From assembly GCA_018716285.1 (NCBI GenBank), contig DVKD01000028.1, forward strand, positions 1 to 64,000: a stretch of DNA of 64,000 nucleotides, written 5' to 3'. Of this stretch, positions 32,188 to 41,745 are shown piece by piece. This DNA comes from Candidatus Merdivicinus faecavium (lineage in GTDB: Bacteria > Bacillota > Clostridia > Oscillospirales > Ruminococcaceae). The notes beneath the pieces were generated by a model, which was given only the letters and a program-made list of their open reading frames with translations, had not been told where the DNA came from and did no database searches. The position numbers and the translations under genes are program-made. The stretch's first letter is position 1. Each line of letters opens with the position of its first letter.

Positions 32188-33828
32188 CTAATTTCTGGGC
32201 GTTTCAGCGGGCGCTTCCGTCCCCTGCTGCTCGAGCTCCTCGAGCGGCCCCAGCTCCCCGGTCTGTTCGAGCTTCTCTATCTGCTCAATCAGCCCCGCAG
32301 CACCGACTGCTCCTGTCTCCGATGCCGGTTCCGAAACAGGCCGGGGCGGCTCTGCGGTGCGCGCAGGGGCGGGTTCCTCAGGCGGCTGCCTGCGCGCCTT
32401 GCCGGGCGTCTTCTCCTCGATGATGAGGCCGTCCGCCTCGAGGGATTCGCGGAAGCTGACCGGCATCTCGCGGATATTGGCCCGCGCCGCCGGCATCGAG
32501 AGCGGCTCCGGGGCGTCCTTGCCCTCCGGCTTGTGCTCCGCCTCGGCGCGCTCCCCGGCGATCTCGCCCTCGGTCTGGCCGGAAAGGCGGGCGAGCTGCT
32601 CGGCAAAGAGGCGGCAGTTTTTCTCCGCGTCAAAATTTTCCTTCCAGGACTGATAGGCGCGCTCCCCCTTCTGGGCGATCCGCTCCTTGCTGATGCGGCA
32701 GAAGCCGTCCAGCGCGAGTCCGAGCTGCTCAGCGGTCACATTGGCGGGGAGGAGCATGCCGTTGTCGTTGTCGACCACCGCCGAGACGCCGTCTACATTG
32801 GTCGCCGCGACGAAAATGTGGTTGGCCATCGCCTCCATCATGGCGGTGGGGACGCTTTCGGAGATGCTCACGCTCAAAAACATGTCGATGTAGGTTTCCC
32901 GGTAATAGCGGTAAATCTCGCGGCGGGTAAGCTTGCCGAGGAACCGGCAGCGGATCCCCTTTTTCTCCGCGAGGACGCTTTTGGCGTAGCTCACCAGCTC
33001 CTGCTGCTCCGAGCCGTCGCCGATATGCACCCACTCGATGCAGCCGCCCTGCACCCGGGCGAGCGCGTCGACCAGGAGCTTTAAGCGCTTGTCCTTTTCG
33101 GTCGGGGAGCATGTGACGACCCGCAGGAAGAATTCCGGCAGCGGGTCGAGCCGCTCCCGTTCCTGGCCGGGCACGCCCAGCCGGGCGACCCGGAAGCGGG
33201 AAACATCCTCTCCGGTCTGTACAAAATTATCCAGATACAACTGTCTGGAATGCTCACTCGTAAAATACACCGCGTCGACCCGGCGGTTGATGACCCCGTT
33301 TAAGGTCTCCCGCCGCGCGCCGGTGCGGGGGTTGAACATATTGGCGTTGTGGCAGCGCGCGACGACCCGGATGTCATCCGAAAAATCCTTGAGGCAGCAG
33401 AGGCCGTAGAGGTAGTCGTTGAAGTTCGCCGAGTAGATGAGCAGCGGCTCCTCCCGCTCAAACAGGTCCTGGCTGCGGATATAGTCGTAGAGGAGGCGGC
33501 TCTTGACAAGGGAGGCGAGGAGGCGCTTCTGGTAAACCGGCGTCAGCCGCCCTTCCTCCTTCGCGATGGCCGTTTCCTCCTTGTATCCGCGGCTGAAGCG
33601 GCAGGACAGGCGGGTCAAAAAGCGTTTCAAGCCGCTCACCTTTTCGGCGGGGCGGTAAAAGACGACGTCCTTGGGCAGGGACTGGGACATCAGCCGCTCG
33701 GTGTCGAGGCTGATGACGTGGACTTTATAGAGCTTCTTGAGCTCCTGGATCTCATTTTCCAGAAAGCTCTCCTGCGTGCCGCAGGGATAATGCTCCGTGA
33801 CGATCAGCAGATTCTGTTTCATGGACAA
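32188..33828 (-). CDS. Glycosyltransferase family 4 with disordered tail
   Basis: A 546-aa GT-B glycosyltransferase. The N-terminal half binds the acceptor (LLIVTEHYPCGTQESFLENE) and the C-terminal half has the sugar-nucleotide site, including CSPTEKDKRLKLLVDALARV, EWVHIGDGSEQQEL and SVSISESVPTAMMEAMANH with the EX7E-type pattern. After about residue 400 the protein is a 140-residue Glu/Pro/Ala-rich tail with no fold signature, unusual for the family. AGGAAGG precedes the ATG. It probably adds a sugar to a surface polysaccharide. Confidence 0.85.
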   Translation of the reverse strand: MSMKQNLLIVTEHYPCGTQESFLENEIQELKKLYKVHVISLDTERLMSQSLPKDVVFYRPAEKVSGLKRFLTRLSCRFSRGYKEETAIAKEEGRLTPVYQKRLLASLVKSRLLYDYIRSQDLFEREEPLLIYSANFNDYLYGLCCLKDFSDDIRVVARCHNANMFNPRTGARRETLNGVINRRVDAVYFTSEHSRQLYLDNFVQTGEDVSRFRVARLGVPGQERERLDPLPEFFLRVVTCSPTEKDKRLKLLVDALARVQGGCIEWVHIGDGSEQQELVSYAKSVLAEKKGIRCRFLGKLTRREIYRYYRETYIDMFLSVSISESVPTAMMEAMANHIFVAATNVDGVSAVVDNDNGMLLPANVTAEQLGLALDGFCRISKERIAQKGERAYQSWKENFDAEKNCRLFAEQLARLSGQTEGEIAGERAEAEHKPEGKDAPEPLSMPAARANIREMPVSFRESLEADGLIIEEKTPGKARRQPPEEPAPARTAEPPRPVSEPASETGAVGAAGLIEQIEKLEQTGELGPLEELEQQGTEAPAETPRN

Positions 33829-33956: not shown

Positions 33957-36900
33957 TCACCCCTGCGGCAGGACAAACCTCCCCTCATCCTCCGCGGCGC
34001 ATCCTCTGCGGACGGCGGCGCGCAAGCCCGCCTCAGCCGCGCCGGCAATGACCGAGCCGGTGCGCTGGAAACCGAAGAGGCGGTAGACTTCCCGCACGAG
34101 GTCCTCCTTGGGCAGGCTGATCTGCCGCTCCAGGACATACCGGACCGCATTGGCGAACTCCTCCGGCGGGATATCCTCGGCGTCGCGGCGGAAATCATCC
34201 GCACCCGGCACGCCCGGCACCCGGAAATCCGCGTACTTGCGCGGCCCGCGGCGGCGGCTCCAGTAGAAGGTGCGGTCCTCCCAGCGGGTCTGGCTGCCGG
34301 GCAGCTTTTCGAGAAGGGGGGCGAAGCGGCGCTCCACCTTTGCGGTCATCCGGGTGATGCCCCAGGCGTTCATGACCCTGCGGCAGAGGAGCTCGCCGCT
34401 GACCGGCGCCTCGGCCTCGAGGACCTGCTTCATCTGGGCGAGGATCTCCCCGTCGTGCTCCGGCAGGCAGAATTCCTCCACCCCGGCCGGACGCTCGGGC
34501 AGCTTGCAGACGACGTAAGGGGCACGTTTCTCCTCGGGCTCCGGCTCCCGTTCGAACCGCGCCTGATCCAATTCGGGCGGGCGGCGCTCCTCGGGCGGCG
34601 GGAGGGGGGCTTGGCGCTCCTGGCGCAGAGCATTCTCAATTGCATCGCGGATGCGCCCAATCTCCCGGACCGGATCCTCCCGCCATTCCAGCACCCAGAC
34701 GTGGTGCAGCTTCCAGCCCAGGGAGCGCAGGACGCTCTCCTGGTTCATGTTACGGTCGCGGGCCGTCTTGCCGGCCTTGTAGGAATTGCCGTCGCAGAGG
34801 ATGCCGAGGAGGTATTCCCCGGGGCGGCGCGGGTCGACGACAGCCAAGTCGATGCGGAAGGCGGAACAGCCGACGTGGGTCCGCACCTCATACCCCAGCC
34901 GCCGCACATGGGAGGCGAGCAGCTCGGCAAAGGGGTCCCGCTGCACCGAAAGCTCCTGCGCCGGGGTGGCGAGGGCGGCGTAGCCCTTTTCGGCGAACTC
35001 GAGGAAGGCCTTGAGCCCGGCGACCCCCTCGGCCCGGGTGCGGGAAAGGTCGATCTGGCTTGCGCGGAGGGTCGAATAGACCTTCATCTCCCGCCGCGCG
35101 CGGGAAACGGCGACGTTTAAGCGCCGCCAGCCGCCCTCCCGGTTGAGGGGGCCGAAATTCAGGGCGACCCGCCCGTCCTCATCCGGCCCGTAGCCGATGG
35201 AGAAGAGGATGACGTCCCGCTCGTCGCCCTGGACGTTTTCGAGGTTCTTGACAAAGATCGGCTCCTCCGCGGCCGCGTTTTTCTCCTCGAGGCCGGGGTG
35301 CTCGGCAAACGCCTCGAGCAGCAGGTCTTCAATCAGGTTCTGCTGCACCGCGCTGAAGGTGACGACCCCGATGCTCTCCTTTGCGAGCCGGTCGTCCGAA
35401 AGGCGGCGGAGGATTTCCCCAACGACCGCCTCGGCTTCGGCGCGGTTTTGCTTGCTCCGGCCGCGGTCGTAGCTGCCGCCCACCGGCACGAGGCTCACCT
35501 TGCTTTCGAGGTCGCACGGGGAGGGGAAGGTGTAGAGGTTTCCGTAATACTGCCGGTTGCTGAAGGCGATGAGGCTCTCGTGCCGGCTGCGGTAGTGCCA
35601 GCGCAGGTGCTCCTCCGGCATTGAGAGGGCGAGGCAGTCGTCGAGGATGCTCTCGAGGTCCTCCTGCTCGAAGTCCTCCCCGCTCTGTGGCGCATTGGTG
35701 AAAAATGCGGTGGGCGGGAGCTGCTTCGGGTCGCCGACGACGATGACGTTCTCGCCGCGCGCGATGGCGCCCACCGCCTCGCAGGTGGGGAGCTGGCTCG
35801 CCTCGTCGAAGATGACCAGGTCAAAGGGCGGGTACTGCGGGTCGATATACTGGGCCACCGAGATGGGGCTCATCAGCATACAGGGGCAGAGCAGCCGCAG
35901 AAGGTTCGGGATGCTGTCGAAAAGGCGGCGGATCGAGAGGGCGCGCCCGCCGCTGCGGATGGCCTTCTGGAGGATGCCGGTCTCGGAGGAGGCGGCGATC
36001 CCGGCGGAGGGTGCGGGGATCCGGGCCGAAAGCCGGGCGATAAGCTCCCGGCGGGTCAGCTGCTCAAAATCGCTGCTCATCCGGCGGAATTTGCGCACCT
36101 TGGCCTCAAACATCTCGCCGTGGAAGCCGGAGAGGGCGGGCTCCGACTCGATCATCGCGTCGGCGCAGGCGGCATAAAGCCCCCGGTGATAGGAAGCCAT
36201 CAGCTGTTCCGGCTCGACTGCCCCGCTGCGGCAGGCAGCCGCGAGGACACGTAAGCCCTCCCCGACCGCCCGCTGTTCGGCGGCGATCCAGCTGCACCAG
36301 CCGCGCAGGAGGGAGAGGTTTTCTCCCCAGCGCCGCTGCCGTTCCCGCAGGAGGGCGAGCTGGCCGCCCTCCTCCTGCTGCGCGGTCCGAATCCGGCCGA
36401 GGCTCCAGATGCGCTCCGCTTCGCGCTTCATCTCCGCAAAGCTCTCGACGAGCGCGCCCAGCTCGGCGCCGGCGGCGTCGTCAGGGCCGGTCCGGTTGGA
36501 GAGGTAGCAGCGCGCCGCATTGGTAAGAAGCTCCCGCCGCGCTTCGGGGCTGTCCGCCAGCCCGGCGGCAGCTTCCTGCAGGCGGCAGCCCTTTTCAAAG
36601 CTCTGCTCGAGGGTGCGCCAGTCCGGCTCGCGCTCCTTCCAGAGCGGCCCGAACCGCGCCGCGAAAACCCGCTCCTTCCCCGCAATGATGCGGGTGCCCT
36701 GGTCGTACTCGGCCAGGAGGTTTAAGCCGCTCTCCACCTGCTCCTTCAAAAGCGACTTTGGATCCTTCGCAAGCGCCCGGAGCGACTTGAGGACCTTATT
36801 CTGGCCGAAGATGCGGGGCAGGATCCAGCTGTCCGACGCCTGTTCCCACTCCCTGCGGGCGGTCGGCTCGTTGAAGAGGAGGATCTCTTTCTGATAGGTG

Positions 36901-39686
36901 ATGAGCAGCGCCTCGCGGGCGGCGTCCCGGCGTCTCCCGCCGCCGCAGAGCTCGTCGAGCTCCTCCCGGAGGGGGGAAAGCTCCCCGCCGGTGACAAGGC
37001 AGGCCGGAAGACCGCTGTTTTCCCGCAGCTGCCGGGCGAAATCGACAATCCCCGCAAGGTAGCGCGCGCTGCCGTCGGCCGGAAGGCCGAGCTTTCCGCA
37101 GAAGGAGGCAAGCAGCGTCTCCGTCCGCTCGATCGACTCCCCGAAAGCGGCAAGGCGGCTGCCCAGCTCGCTGCGGACCGAGGAGCTGTAGGCGGAGAGC
37201 TGCCACTCCCGCAGCGGATGCCCGGCAGGGCCCCCGCAGGCGATGGCGGCGGCCTGCATTTCCTCGGCGATATCCTCCCAAACCTGGACGGTGCGGGCAG
37301 TCAGGCCCTCCACCTCCTCAGGCAGGAAGCAGATATCGGCGGGGGCGTCCAGGCTCGCCTCGTAGCGGGTGATCGCCTCCCAGGCGGAGAAGCCGCAGGG
37401 GCGCTGCCGGTGAAGGGCCGCGACATAGGCGTTGAGTTCCTGCCGCAGCGCGTAAAGCCGCTCGGCCTGCTCCTCGTAATTTTCGGCCGGGCGGATGTGG
37501 CCGATGGCGAGGGCCTGCTGGAGCTGGGAGAGGACGTCCCGCTTCTTGGCCTTATTGGAGTGCAGCTCGAGGGCAAAGGGGCCGAGGCCGATCTTTTCGA
37601 GCCGCTTCTGGACGACTGAAAGGGCGGCCATCTTCTCGGCGAGGAAGAGGACGCTCTTGCCGTGATAGAGGGCGTTGGCGATGATGTTGGTGATGGTCTG
37701 GGACTTGCCGGTGCCGGGCGGGCCGTGGAGGACAAAGCTCTTTCCCTGCCCGGCCGCGCAGATGGCGGCGAGCTGAGAGGCGTCGGCTGTGATGGGGACG
37801 GCCATATCGGCGGGACGGTACTCCTCGTCGAGCCGCTCCGGGGCGGGGAATTCGCCGTCCGGCGCCCACTCCATCCGGCCGGACATGAGGCTGCGGACGA
37901 TCTTATTGCGCTTTAAATCCTCAGCCCGGTTGCGGATATCGCTCCACATGATAAACTGGCTGAAGGAAAACAGGCCGAGGAAGGCGCGCTTTTCGATATC
38001 CCAGCGCGGCTGGCCGGCGGTTGCCCGGCGGACGGCGGAAAAAACCGCTTCCAGGTCGGCTCCCTGACGGTCATGCGGCAGCGAATCCAGGCCGGGAATG
38101 CTGATGCCGAAATCCTGCCGCAGCATCTCGAGGAGGGTGATGTTCATCTGGGGCTCGTCGTCCCGCATCCGCACCACATATCCGTACGGCGGGGTTTTGC
38201 GGACAATCTCGACGGGCAGCAGCACAAGCGGGGCATAGCGCGGCTTTTCGCTCAGCTCCGATTCGTACCATTTGAGAAGGCCGACGGCCAGGTAGAGGGT
38301 GTTCGAGCCGTTTTCCTCCAAACTCAGACGGGCCTGGCGGTACAAATAGGTCATGGCGGGGGCGACCTCCTGCTCGGGCAGGAAGGCATGCAGCAGCCCC
38401 GCTTCCAGGTCGGAGGCGGCGATCAGCGGGATTTCGGGCTGATCCTCGTCCAAGCGGAAGAGCCTGCGCTCCTCCCGGACGAGCTTCCATTCCTCCGGGC
38501 TTCCGGCGACCCGGAATTCGGTCCCGGCTGCAACTGCGTCCCCAAGGGAGGCGCAGTCGGGGGTGATGAGCTGTAAGGCGCTGCGGGTCACCCGGAAATT
38601 GATGAGCATGTTGCGCAGGCTCAGGTCGAGCAGCCGGCGCTCCCAGAGCTGCTGGCGGGAGAGGACGGGCTCCGGCGCGGGACGCGGCTGGGCAGCCCCC
38701 TGCCCCCCTTCCCCCAAAAGGGGCGCGATGCCGCCCTCGCGGGCGCGGCTGATGTCCAGCAGGAAGAGGAAGCTCCCGTCGAGCACCCGCCCGCAGACAA
38801 GCGCGCAGGCCTCTTCGAAGCTGTCCTCCTGGCCCCGGGCAGCCGCCGCGGCGTCAAACAGGAGGATTTCGGCAGTCCTATCCCCATTTGGCTCCCAGAC
38901 TGACGGCAGGTCGTCCTGAATGCTCTCGGCAAAGCGGCGCTCCTCGAGCCAGCAGCCTGCCGACACGGTCTCTTCCTCAAAAATCACCAGCGGGTGAAGG
39001 CCCGCGGCCTCCAGGCAGGCGCAGCTGAGGAGGGTGAACTCGAGAGTGCTCCCCTCGCCGCCTGCAAACAGCGCGGAAGCGGGGCGGGCCTGCGGAAAAT
39101 GCTCCCCGGCTTCGGCCAAGGCCAATTTCCGCGCCCGGATGGCCTCATAGATTGCCCTTGTCTGCAAAAGGACAGCCCCGCTGCTCTGGCTGCGGTAACC
39201 GGCAAAGTCCTCCGCGCCCCATCCGGCGAGAAGCTTTCTCCCATCCGCAAGCAGTTCCCCGACGCCCGGATCTCCGGGCAGGACGTAGGCGGCGGTCAGC
39301 TCCGGAAGGAGCTCCCGCCCCGGCCATTGGTGCGGGGAAAGGAGGGTGACCGGGCAGCTTTCGCGGAGCAGCTCCCCCTCTTCCCCGTCGGCGGACAGCA
39401 AGATCTTCCCCTCGGTCTGCTGCGGGAGGGCGGCGAGGAACTCCCCGGACAGGCGCAGCCCGGAAAGGTCGAGCTGCACCCGTTCCCCCGCCGGGAGGAA
39501 GGGCAGCTCGCAGCTCCATTCCGCGGCAAAGGCCGGCTCGAATTCCAGCTTGACCTGCAGCCCGCTCAGCGGCTCCTCCCCCGCGTTCAGGAGGATCAGC
39601 CGCTGGATCAGCGGGAGGCGGTTCTGCTCCATCGCGCAGTTCACGATGCTGCTCCACAAAATATCAGCTGTCAGCCGCCCGTCCAT
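33957..39686 (-). CDS. Giant DUF4011 / SF1 helicase / Vsr-like nuclease / DUF3320 protein (hhe-like)
   Basis: A 1909-aa protein. Residues 1-340 are a novel-looking region (beta-sandwich, then a possible transglutaminase-like fold). DUF4011 starts near 347 with WERRLLDLSLRNMLINF. SF1 helicase motifs follow: FVLHGPPGTGKSQT (about 657), FDEASQLPTCEAVG (about 1295) and RLNVAVSRARREM (about 1530). A Vsr-like nuclease lies near 1600-1690 (FRIDLAVVDPRRPGEYLLG, then LRSLGWKLHHVWVLEW). DUF3320 ends the protein. This order matches the single-gene anti-phage system named hhe (HEPN-helicase-Vsr), as I recall it. AGAAGGG lies 8 nt before ATG 39686; the GTG at 39695 is too close. Function is inferred. Confidence 0.85.
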   Translation of the reverse strand: MDGRLTADILWSSIVNCAMEQNRLPLIQRLILLNAGEEPLSGLQVKLEFEPAFAAEWSCELPFLPAGERVQLDLSGLRLSGEFLAALPQQTEGKILLSADGEEGELLRESCPVTLLSPHQWPGRELLPELTAAYVLPGDPGVGELLADGRKLLAGWGAEDFAGYRSQSSGAVLLQTRAIYEAIRARKLALAEAGEHFPQARPASALFAGGEGSTLEFTLLSCACLEAAGLHPLVIFEEETVSAGCWLEERRFAESIQDDLPSVWEPNGDRTAEILLFDAAAAARGQEDSFEEACALVCGRVLDGSFLFLLDISRAREGGIAPLLGEGGQGAAQPRPAPEPVLSRQQLWERRLLDLSLRNMLINFRVTRSALQLITPDCASLGDAVAAGTEFRVAGSPEEWKLVREERRLFRLDEDQPEIPLIAASDLEAGLLHAFLPEQEVAPAMTYLYRQARLSLEENGSNTLYLAVGLLKWYESELSEKPRYAPLVLLPVEIVRKTPPYGYVVRMRDDEPQMNITLLEMLRQDFGISIPGLDSLPHDRQGADLEAVFSAVRRATAGQPRWDIEKRAFLGLFSFSQFIMWSDIRNRAEDLKRNKIVRSLMSGRMEWAPDGEFPAPERLDEEYRPADMAVPITADASQLAAICAAGQGKSFVLHGPPGTGKSQTITNIIANALYHGKSVLFLAEKMAALSVVQKRLEKIGLGPFALELHSNKAKKRDVLSQLQQALAIGHIRPAENYEEQAERLYALRQELNAYVAALHRQRPCGFSAWEAITRYEASLDAPADICFLPEEVEGLTARTVQVWEDIAEEMQAAAIACGGPAGHPLREWQLSAYSSSVRSELGSRLAAFGESIERTETLLASFCGKLGLPADGSARYLAGIVDFARQLRENSGLPACLVTGGELSPLREELDELCGGGRRRDAAREALLITYQKEILLFNEPTARREWEQASDSWILPRIFGQNKVLKSLRALAKDPKSLLKEQVESGLNLLAEYDQGTRIIAGKERVFAARFGPLWKEREPDWRTLEQSFEKGCRLQEAAAGLADSPEARRELLTNAARCYLSNRTGPDDAAGAELGALVESFAEMKREAERIWSLGRIRTAQQEEGGQLALLRERQRRWGENLSLLRGWCSWIAAEQRAVGEGLRVLAAACRSGAVEPEQLMASYHRGLYAACADAMIESEPALSGFHGEMFEAKVRKFRRMSSDFEQLTRRELIARLSARIPAPSAGIAASSETGILQKAIRSGGRALSIRRLFDSIPNLLRLLCPCMLMSPISVAQYIDPQYPPFDLVIFDEASQLPTCEAVGAIARGENVIVVGDPKQLPPTAFFTNAPQSGEDFEQEDLESILDDCLALSMPEEHLRWHYRSRHESLIAFSNRQYYGNLYTFPSPCDLESKVSLVPVGGSYDRGRSKQNRAEAEAVVGEILRRLSDDRLAKESIGVVTFSAVQQNLIEDLLLEAFAEHPGLEEKNAAAEEPIFVKNLENVQGDERDVILFSIGYGPDEDGRVALNFGPLNREGGWRRLNVAVSRARREMKVYSTLRASQIDLSRTRAEGVAGLKAFLEFAEKGYAALATPAQELSVQRDPFAELLASHVRRLGYEVRTHVGCSAFRIDLAVVDPRRPGEYLLGILCDGNSYKAGKTARDRNMNQESVLRSLGWKLHHVWVLEWREDPVREIGRIRDAIENALRQERQAPLPPPEERRPPELDQARFEREPEPEEKRAPYVVCKLPERPAGVEEFCLPEHDGEILAQMKQVLEAEAPVSGELLCRRVMNAWGITRMTAKVERRFAPLLEKLPGSQTRWEDRTFYWSRRRGPRKYADFRVPGVPGADDFRRDAEDIPPEEFANAVRYVLERQISLPKEDLVREVYRLFGFQRTGSVIAGAAEAGLRAAVRRGCAAEDEGRFVLPQG

Positions 39687-39902
39687 ATCCGTCACCCTTC
39701 TCTCTGTTGTTTTTGATATCGTTTCCCCTTCATTTTATCCCAGAAGGCGGCCCTTCGTCAACCGGATTTCTTCGTGATTTCAGACAAACTTTCCCCGCCT
39801 TCCCCTGCGATCTTTGACCCTCCCGGACGTTTCGGCAAACCTGCCAAAAAGCGGCCTCAGCGGGCACTTTCAGGGCAGTTTTTCAGGATATTTCGCACAA
39901 AA

Positions 39903-39931
39903 AAACCGTCCATCGGGAAGATGGACGGTTT
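39903..39931 (-). terminator. Terminator of the M23 peptidase gene
   Basis: AAACCGTCCATC / GATGGACGGTTT with a 5-nt loop, followed by a T-run on the minus strand. Confidence 0.9.
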
Positions 39932-39951: not shown

Positions 39952-41745
39952 TCAGTTCAGGTAGTTGAGGGGGTTCATGCGGGAACCGTTGATGCGGACC
40001 TCGAAGTGGCAGTGGTTGCCGAAGGAGTAGCCGGTGCTGCCCGCGCCCGCGATGACCTGACCCTGCGAGACGGTCTGGCCGACCGAAACATTGAGGGTCG
40101 AGTTGTGGGCGTAAAGGGTCTGGACGCCGTTGCCGTGGTCGATGATGACCGCCTTGCCGTAGGAGTCGTACCAGCCGGCGAGGACGACGGTGCCGCTGGC
40201 GGAGGCGACGATGCCGGTGCCGTAGGGGCAGGCAATGTCGATCGCCCTGTGGCCCGAGCTGTAGTAGCAGCTGATATAGCCGCCGCTGCTGACCGGCCAG
40301 ATAAAGGTGCCGCTGTAGCTGCCGGTGCCGGTGGAAGAGGAGAGGACCCGGCCGCTCGCATAGGTGACCTGCTGCTTGGTGCCCTCCACAACCTTTTTGG
40401 TGACGGGCTCCTGGATAACTTCGGTCTCCAGGACCTCGCGGTTGGTTTCATAACCGTCGATGTACTCGACAGAAGCCGTGACCTGGCAGAGGCCGTTCTG
40501 GCCCTCCTGCACGGTCTTGGTGTAGCCGACGTACTGGCTGCTGTCCTGGGTGGTCTCGGTCTCGTAGGCGACCTCCTCGGTGGTCACCTCGGTGCGGGTG
40601 ACGCGGACCGAAAGGAAGGGCTTCTCGGTGGAGATCAGGGCCTCCTGGCCGATAAAGCAGTTCTCCTCGATATCGGGGTTGAGCGCCTTGAACTCGGCGT
40701 AGGTGAGGCCGTTCTTGTTGGCAATCTGGATGGGGCTGTCGCCCTCTTCGATGGTGTAGGTGCGTTCCGCCGATTCGGTCGAGAGGAGGAGATCCTGCAT
40801 CTCCTCATTGGAAATCAGGCTGTCTTTGAGGTACAGGCCGTCTTTGAGCTCGATCGTTTTCACAAAGGAAACGACCTCGCCCTCAGCGCCGGTGCGGTAC
40901 TTGTCGAGGGTCGAATCCAGAATCTCCTCGATCAGAGTGGTGTCGGTGACGGCGCCGTAAAAATCGCCGTCGATATAGAGGCCCTGCGCCTCAAAAATAT
41001 CCTCATTGGACATCCGGATCAGGCTGTCGGTCATCTTGTCCGCATCCGAAATCAGCTCAGAGTTGACTGCGACAACGGAAAGTTCCGGATCGATTTCGAT
41101 ATTGGCGGCCGTGCCGTCGGTGTGGATGATCCGCTGGCGGAGCATTTCCTGGGCGGTGGTGAGCACCGACTCATCGGTAATGTAGCCGACATGTTCGCCC
41201 TGGCTTGTCACCTCAAGGGCGTAATCCACCCGCGTGGCGGCGCCGACGACGTTGACTAAAACCAGAACGCCGAAAACCGGCGCGGCATAGTTGAGGATGG
41301 TCGTAAAAAATCTGCTGTTGTTGCGCACGCCGCAATACACATAGGCTGCGGCGCTGCCCGCGCCTTCCTCCCGGAATCTCCGGAAGATCTGGCCCGGCGC
41401 ACGGTACATCTTGACAAAAGGCATCGCGGCGTTCCGGCAGAAGCGTCCGCCCTCTTTGCGCAGCAGGGAAGCGGCCTTGCGGGCATTCCCTCCGATCAAC
41501 GCGGCCGCCTTTCCGAATGCTTCCGCACAGGTTCTGCGGAAGCCGCGGCTGCTTTCCTCCGCAGCCCGGGCGGTATAGAGGCAGAGGCTCTTGGCCTGTC
41601 CGCCCGCCGCGTGAAACGCTTTATGAAGAAGCTGCCCGGCTTTTTGACGCAGGGCGCTTTGTTCAAGCTTGTCCTGTATGTAATTCCAGCTGGAATCGGT
41701 CTTTTCTTTCAAGTCAGAAATCCATTTTCCAACCTGCAAAGCCAT
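39952..41745 (-). CDS. LysM-G5-M23 peptidoglycan endopeptidase
   Basis: A 597-aa membrane-anchored wall hydrolase. Residues 1-145 are a basic cytoplasmic tail, and one membrane helix spans about 148-168 (ILNYAAPVFGVLVLVNVVGA). Outside come a long linker, a LysM domain (YTIEEGDSPIQIANKNGLTY), a G5 domain (about 390-470) and the M23 domain, with zinc motifs GHRAIDIA (HxxxD) and NHCHFEV (HxH). It should cut peptide cross-links of peptidoglycan. The long cytoplasmic tail is unusual. A WalR-type site lies at its promoter. Confidence 0.93.
   Translation of the reverse strand: MALQVGKWISDLKEKTDSSWNYIQDKLEQSALRQKAGQLLHKAFHAAGGQAKSLCLYTARAAEESSRGFRRTCAEAFGKAAALIGGNARKAASLLRKEGGRFCRNAAMPFVKMYRAPGQIFRRFREEGAGSAAAYVYCGVRNNSRFFTTILNYAAPVFGVLVLVNVVGAATRVDYALEVTSQGEHVGYITDESVLTTAQEMLRQRIIHTDGTAANIEIDPELSVVAVNSELISDADKMTDSLIRMSNEDIFEAQGLYIDGDFYGAVTDTTLIEEILDSTLDKYRTGAEGEVVSFVKTIELKDGLYLKDSLISNEEMQDLLLSTESAERTYTIEEGDSPIQIANKNGLTYAEFKALNPDIEENCFIGQEALISTEKPFLSVRVTRTEVTTEEVAYETETTQDSSQYVGYTKTVQEGQNGLCQVTASVEYIDGYETNREVLETEVIQEPVTKKVVEGTKQQVTYASGRVLSSSTGTGSYSGTFIWPVSSGGYISCYYSSGHRAIDIACPYGTGIVASASGTVVLAGWYDSYGKAVIIDHGNGVQTLYAHNSTLNVSVGQTVSQGQVIAGAGSTGYSFGNHCHFEVRINGSRMNPLNYLN

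Follow-up and report, generated by a model that had tools for sequence, protein, structure and literature searches.

The window analysed here is a stretch of 64,000 nucleotides from Candidatus Merdivicinus faecavium, and one gene in it encodes a very long protein in which a helicase and a nuclease-like domain are preceded by more than 300 residues of initially obscure origin. Two questions arise from this locus: to which system, defensive or otherwise, does the protein belong, and what does its N-terminal region do? The original prediction described a single-gene helicase-nuclease defence candidate with a beta-sandwich and a transglutaminase (TG)-like stretch at the N-terminus, and filed it as the anti-phage system Hhe. 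The description stood up to the analyses below; the filing did not.

Gene structure and domain layout

The open frame spans positions 33957-39695 on the minus strand, with an in-frame GTG at 39695. We take the ATG at 39686 to be the better start: a Shine-Dalgarno-like AGAAGG sits 9 nt ahead of this codon but directly abuts the GTG (0 nt), and the window protein and its orthologue in a same-genus genome (G006) share the aligned start Met. On this basis the coordinates and the length of 1909 aa given originally were exactly right, and the ORF is a real gene, as previously observed. The terminator-like hairpin on the M23 side and the promoter-like element ahead of proA (Table 1) suggest that proA is its own transcription unit and is probably transcribed alone; similar elements were seen by eye upstream of proA in G001, G002 and G006, the other genomes of the genus that carry it. 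Just upstream of the promoter-like element, the carriers have a conserved stretch, AAAGTTTGTCTGAAATCACGAAGAAAT (window 39732-39790; also L038, L039 and L042), which is shorter in G002 and is a possible operator.

Pfam hits, numbered on the 1912-aa frame that begins at the GTG (Table 1 is numbered on the 1909-aa protein), placed DUF4011 at 354-525, helicase pieces (AAA_11/AAA_12/AAA_30) at 638-699, 1290-1330 and 1408-1539, REase_MTES_1575 at 1589-1686 and DUF3320, a winged-helix region according to PMC3710099, at 1741-1788. The chain originally read from the letters, DUF4011, SF1 helicase, Vsr-like nuclease and DUF3320, is thus present in one protein, and both the DUF4011 and the Vsr-like profiles were matched (E-values in Table 1). 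The SF1 helicase motifs, namely Walker A, DEAS and the motif VI arginine, are intact. Residues 1-340 had no significant Pfam family match, and a PDB sequence profile search with the N-terminus gave no match.

Table 1. Coordinates of the proA-like gene, its domains, its surroundings and its degenerate relatives (window positions unless a locus is named)
Feature	Position	Strand	Remarks
Glycosyltransferase gene, downstream flank	32188..33828	-	conserved in 7/7 genus genomes
proA-like gene, 1909 aa	33957..39686	-	ATG start; alternative in-frame GTG 39695 less likely
Ig-like beta-sandwich, residues 1-118	39333..39686	-	AlphaFold model; Foldseek: Ig-like beta domains of transglutaminases, ApaG, lamin
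TG-like domain, residues 119-325, triad lost	38712..39332	-	T214, T240, D278 replace C, H, E
DUF4011, residues 351-522	38121..38636	-	Pfam 3e-44
SF1 helicase first part, residues 634-770	37377..37787	-	Pfam; Walker A GPPGTGKSQT, K661
Insert between helicase halves, residues 771-1250	35937..37376	-	no Pfam family
SF1 helicase second part, residues 1255-1545	35052..35924	-	DEAS (D1294), SRARR (R1529)
MTES_1575 Vsr-like nuclease fold, residues 1586-1683	34638..34931	-	Pfam 5e-27; D1613, D1632, R1643 kept
DUF3320, residues 1738-1785	34332..34475	-	Pfam 2e-15
Promoter-like TTGACG-18-TAAAAT, upstream of proA	39732..39761	-	by eye, no scan
Terminator-like hairpin + T-run, after M23 gene	39899..39928	-	by eye
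M23 peptidase gene, upstream flank	39952..41745	-	conserved in 7/7 genus genomes
Degenerate ProA-like loci, f17	L125:3018-8057, L129:4821-7778, L117-L124		

Assignment to the ProA family

The protein covered the NCBIfam model 'anti-phage protein ProA' (NF058533) end to end (positions 1-1903 of 1903, from residue 19 of the window protein) and scored 1947 bits against an equivalog cut-off of 1500. The NCBIfam model of Hhe (NF042953) gave 777 bits against an equivalog cut-off of 2000, and in PADLOC the candidate family PDC-S37 (1226 bits) ranked ahead of Hhe (577 bits). Going by these model matches, the window protein is a full-length member of the ProA family and not Hhe. A true Hhe system, as first read, would explain the PADLOC and NCBIfam scores over the helicase-nuclease half, and the order of DUF4011, SF1 helicase and Vsr-type nuclease is common to both. 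Nevertheless, we rejected Hhe membership because the score falls short of the model cut-off. In addition, the best match is confined to 1085-1696, the N-terminus and the insert differ from those of Hhe, ProA is matched over its whole length above its own cut-off, and the protein has no HEPN-type Rx4-6H outside the helicase and nuclease segments. The original Hhe label was thus a near miss, and we consider an Hhe system scarcely credible here.

The N-terminal region, originally regarded as unexplained, is not foreign to the protein. The Ig-like and TG-like module stands ahead of DUF4011, as in the domain order of ProA (NF058533; PADLOC PDC-S37), and residues 1-325 align with other ProA proteins. 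Since both the ProA model and homologues on plasmids include these residues, the N-terminus is an ordinary module of the family. Homologues were present on 470 plasmid records, of which 51 span 80% or more of the query; alignments with those from Bacteroides, Paraburkholderia, Rhizobium, Raoultella and others begin at about residue 3-24, and some homologues lie beside restriction, toxin-antitoxin or ThiF/JAB genes. Viral contigs searched with the N-terminal alignment and a gut-phage homologue yielded no relatives; three contigs were matched by a Raoultella-type query, the only one to give matches. A scan of genome contigs found only one related MAG.

Giant proteins combining TG, SF1 helicase, Vsr and wHTH domains and also carrying an N-terminal HEPN RNase domain, of the MTES_1575 type, were described by Anantharaman et al. 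2013 (PMC3710099), who proposed that their TG domain cleaves proteins. The window protein likewise joins TG, helicase, Vsr and DUF3320/wHTH domains in one chain. In contrast to those giants, it has no Pfam HEPN match and its Rx4-6H motifs are found only inside the helicase and nuclease segments; moreover, its copy could not fill the proposed peptidase role, as its TG residues are lost (see below). Within the literature library searched, no paper defining ProA or PDC-S37, or connecting either with 'Prometheus', came up, nor any account of ProA experiments. We do not claim that ProA is Prometheus.

The N-terminal module and its lost triad

Residues 1-334 were modelled with AlphaFold (four-row alignment, mean pLDDT 73), which gave a beta-sandwich of ~118 residues followed by an alpha/beta domain, in keeping with the N-terminus as originally read, and TG-like motifs were found in relatives with an intact domain. 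Because Foldseek matched this model mainly through the beta-sandwich, to Ig-like domains, the TG domain of an intact relative (L084) was modelled instead (pLDDT 71.5, pTM 0.76). Its matches were mainly to TG-like folds in the PDB, namely yeast and mouse PNGase, Rad4/XPC, menin, transglutaminase 2 (TG2) and TgpA. The E-values were weak (0.016 at best), and the putative TG fold is called from the consistency of these matches together with the motifs.

The TG motifs of the ProA family are GTCLD, GHAF and VETT. The Cys-His-Glu triad that they carry was intact in 29 sampled homologues from Firmicutes, Bacteroidota, Proteobacteria and a gut-phage contig, one of them from the same genus (G001). In the window protein all three positions are replaced (Table 1); the corresponding residues are A, T and D in G006 and A, E and D in G002. 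The QDD motif and the overall fold are kept. As aligned, the catalytic triad is lost in the window lineage, comprising the window's own genome (G000), G006 and G002, and it is this lineage-specific loss in an otherwise retained ProA protein that appears to be new. Because the ProA family model does not state Cys-His-Glu, membership was judged without regard to the triad.

When the window sequence was compared with G006, the TG-like domain had the highest dN (0.28), with omega about 0.24, and the helicase parts were the most constrained (omega about 0.07-0.08); dS was near saturation in several pairs and the omega values are rough. The ratio of dN in the TG domain to that in the helicase was 4.3-5.3 for pairs within the window clade or between this clade and G001, about 3 for the window clade versus the more distant G156, and 1.05-2.8 between pairs of intact homologues. 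Relative to the helicase, the TG domain of the window lineage has therefore evolved ~2–3 times faster than in intact relatives. The raised ratio, taken with an omega of about 0.24, suggests that loss of the triad was followed by relaxed or altered constraint, and that the domain, still open, is under purifying selection and not freely decaying. It could be argued that the domain is still an active enzyme relying on other residues, as the QDD motif and the overall fold would allow, but the three triad positions are all changed, and differently so in each of the three genomes, and the evolutionary rate is relaxed. Residual catalysis is thus very improbable in our judgement, and we regard the domain of this lineage as most likely non-catalytic.

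Two further N-terminal architectures were noted. A 742-aa protein (L086:2051-4279), whose N-terminal stretch is hydrophobic and by eye resembles a signal sequence, carries beta domains and the TG-like motifs GTCVDL...RHAYP...VPVETT outside any ProA; the TG-like module is reused elsewhere. A 2084-aa frame in G038 (L005) has an extra helical N-terminal extension of ~150 aa with no Pfam hit, which is reminiscent of HsdR/HEPN-like domains.

The nuclease domain

The Vsr-like domain keeps D1613, D1632 and R1643, and has L1630 and K1637 at the Glu and His positions, respectively, of the motif found in proteobacterial homologues (ID...ECDGATYH...ARDR). Cutting by this domain is uncertain because both residues are missing. 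In the group formed by Firmicutes and Bacteroidota, the window included, ID, mostly CDG, and ARDR are kept, the Glu is replaced and the His is usually replaced. As other members of this group also have the replacement, the change of the nuclease Glu predates the window lineage.

Distribution and history of the locus

The M23 and glycosyltransferase flanks were found in all seven genomes of the genus, and proA in four. It lies between the two flanking genes in G000, G002 and G006, although in G006 it is broken across two contigs with one flank on each; in G001 it adjoins the M23 gene and the other side is cut by the contig end. ProA was absent from the remaining three genomes, which are 96-98% complete. 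In G003 the two flanking genes are 201 bp apart, leaving a clean empty site, and in G004 and G005 a HAD-phosphatase-like gene occupies the site in place of proA; G002 has both genes. This HAD-phosphatase-like gene is on the opposite strand of the interval (L036, L037 and L038). The interval seems to be a small variable spot.

A midpoint-rooted tree of five flanking proteins gave (G001,((G003,(G006,G000)),(G002,(G005,G004)))), and the ProA tree gave (G001,(G002,(G006,window))); for the latter tree only, the aligned columns of the two pieces of the contig-split proA genes of G001 and G006 were pooled. As the gene tree agrees with the flank/species tree, the locus history suggests that proA was inherited vertically and lost at least twice in the genus, and that the triad disappeared after G001 had split off. 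ProA is dispensable in the genus, as it is absent from three of seven genomes, one with a clean empty site.

The original prediction also named a conserved housekeeping role in all related genomes as something that would speak against defence. What we found is a sparse distribution, which argues against such a role: ProA is missing from those three genomes, and just 6 of 300 genomes of the phylum, the window's own included, score above the cut-off. The same data bear on whether the protein is a SMUBP2/Upf1-type helicase that maintains host DNA or RNA. The gene is chromosomal, confined to one locus, inherited vertically and without a defence island around it, and its closest solved relatives are SMUBP-2 and Sen1-type helicases, all of which would fit a maintenance helicase. 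However, a gene that near-complete sister genomes lack, that is rare in the phylum and common on plasmids elsewhere, and whose product is fused to a nuclease and DUF3320, makes for a poor candidate, and we regard a maintenance role as distinctly improbable.

The gene might otherwise be a defence gene decaying towards loss, in which TG activity went first, the nuclease was altered and the whole gene has already gone from sister species. The lost triad, the fast-evolving TG domain and the repeated whole-gene losses fit such a course. On the other hand, the frame is intact, the helicase is under strong purifying selection, the omega of the TG domain is well short of free decay, the promoter-like element is present in all four carriers, and the replacement of the nuclease Glu, shared with other Firmicutes and Bacteroidota members, is older than the lineage. 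Ongoing decay is unlikely on this evidence, if worth keeping in mind.

Degenerate relatives beside Shango operons

A search with the N-terminal module detected a second, much more divergent group in families f17 and f20, which belong to the same taxonomic order. These proteins are ~1390-1725 aa long, have lost the TG triad and much of the Vsr residue set, and lack DUF3320; Walker A and DEAx are degenerate in most of them. The proteins of G538 and G586 diverge too far for their residues to be aligned firmly and are counted only as 'triad lost'. Among the f17 genomes (>=90% complete, <=5% contamination), 10 of 11 had a degenerate ProA-like match.

In five genomes representing four genera (G052, G390, G459, G432 and G473), the degenerate gene is directly downstream of a Shango-type operon made up of a TerB_N/TerB_C-type gene, a BrxC/D-type ATPase and a helicase. 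PADLOC scored the genes of G052 as Shango SngA, SngB and SngC, and the operons of the other four were assigned by their similarity to G052. The degenerate gene of G507 and G405 has no adjacent Shango. Shango was described as three genes or briefly listed in PMC10250203 and PMC10952713, and the association with a degenerate ProA was not found in these two papers. The ProA-like gene is possibly a fourth Shango gene. We tentatively raise the possibility that in defence proteins of the ProA kind the peptidase-like domain at the N-terminus has more than once become a sensor or scaffold without catalysis: in the window genus, and separately in another family of the order, in which TG, helicase and nuclease are all degenerate and the gene lies beside Shango.

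Proposed function and implications

We think it probable that the window gene encodes a chromosomal, single-gene member of the ProA anti-phage family, and that its TG-like domain is a non-catalytic structural or sensing part. Phage restriction is suggested by the 'anti-phage' label of the NCBIfam model; DNA as the substrate and the role of each domain are our inference. The C-terminal winged-helix region (DUF3320) and DUF4011 would engage invading nucleic acid, on which the SF1 helicase would translocate using ATP, and the Vsr-fold domain would either cut or grip it. In most ProA proteins, whose triad is conserved as far as sampled, the N-terminal TG-like domain is predicted to act as a cysteine peptidase or transglutaminase. 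In the window lineage, it most likely serves instead as a structural or sensing part in the manner of the eukaryotic Rad4/XPC and menin, which have a TG-like fold without catalysis and are among the nearest folds to the L084 domain; the resemblance to the ProA domain is one of fold only, not of homologous function.

As originally noted, the gene stands alone, with glycosyltransferase and M23 genes as neighbours, and PADLOC found no clear defence gene among 10 other window ORFs tested (one weak match, to a radical-SAM gene, was disregarded). Being passed on vertically at a fixed locus, away from any visible defence island, would be unusual for a mobile defence gene, and this counts against the defensive reading that we favour.

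The analysis corrects the filing of the candidate, from Hhe to ProA, and accounts for its puzzling N-terminus. With intact and dead TG-like copies at the same locus, one genus offers a natural experiment on whether ProA needs TG catalysis for defence. The degenerate relative linked to Shango is a more surprising lead than the window gene itself.
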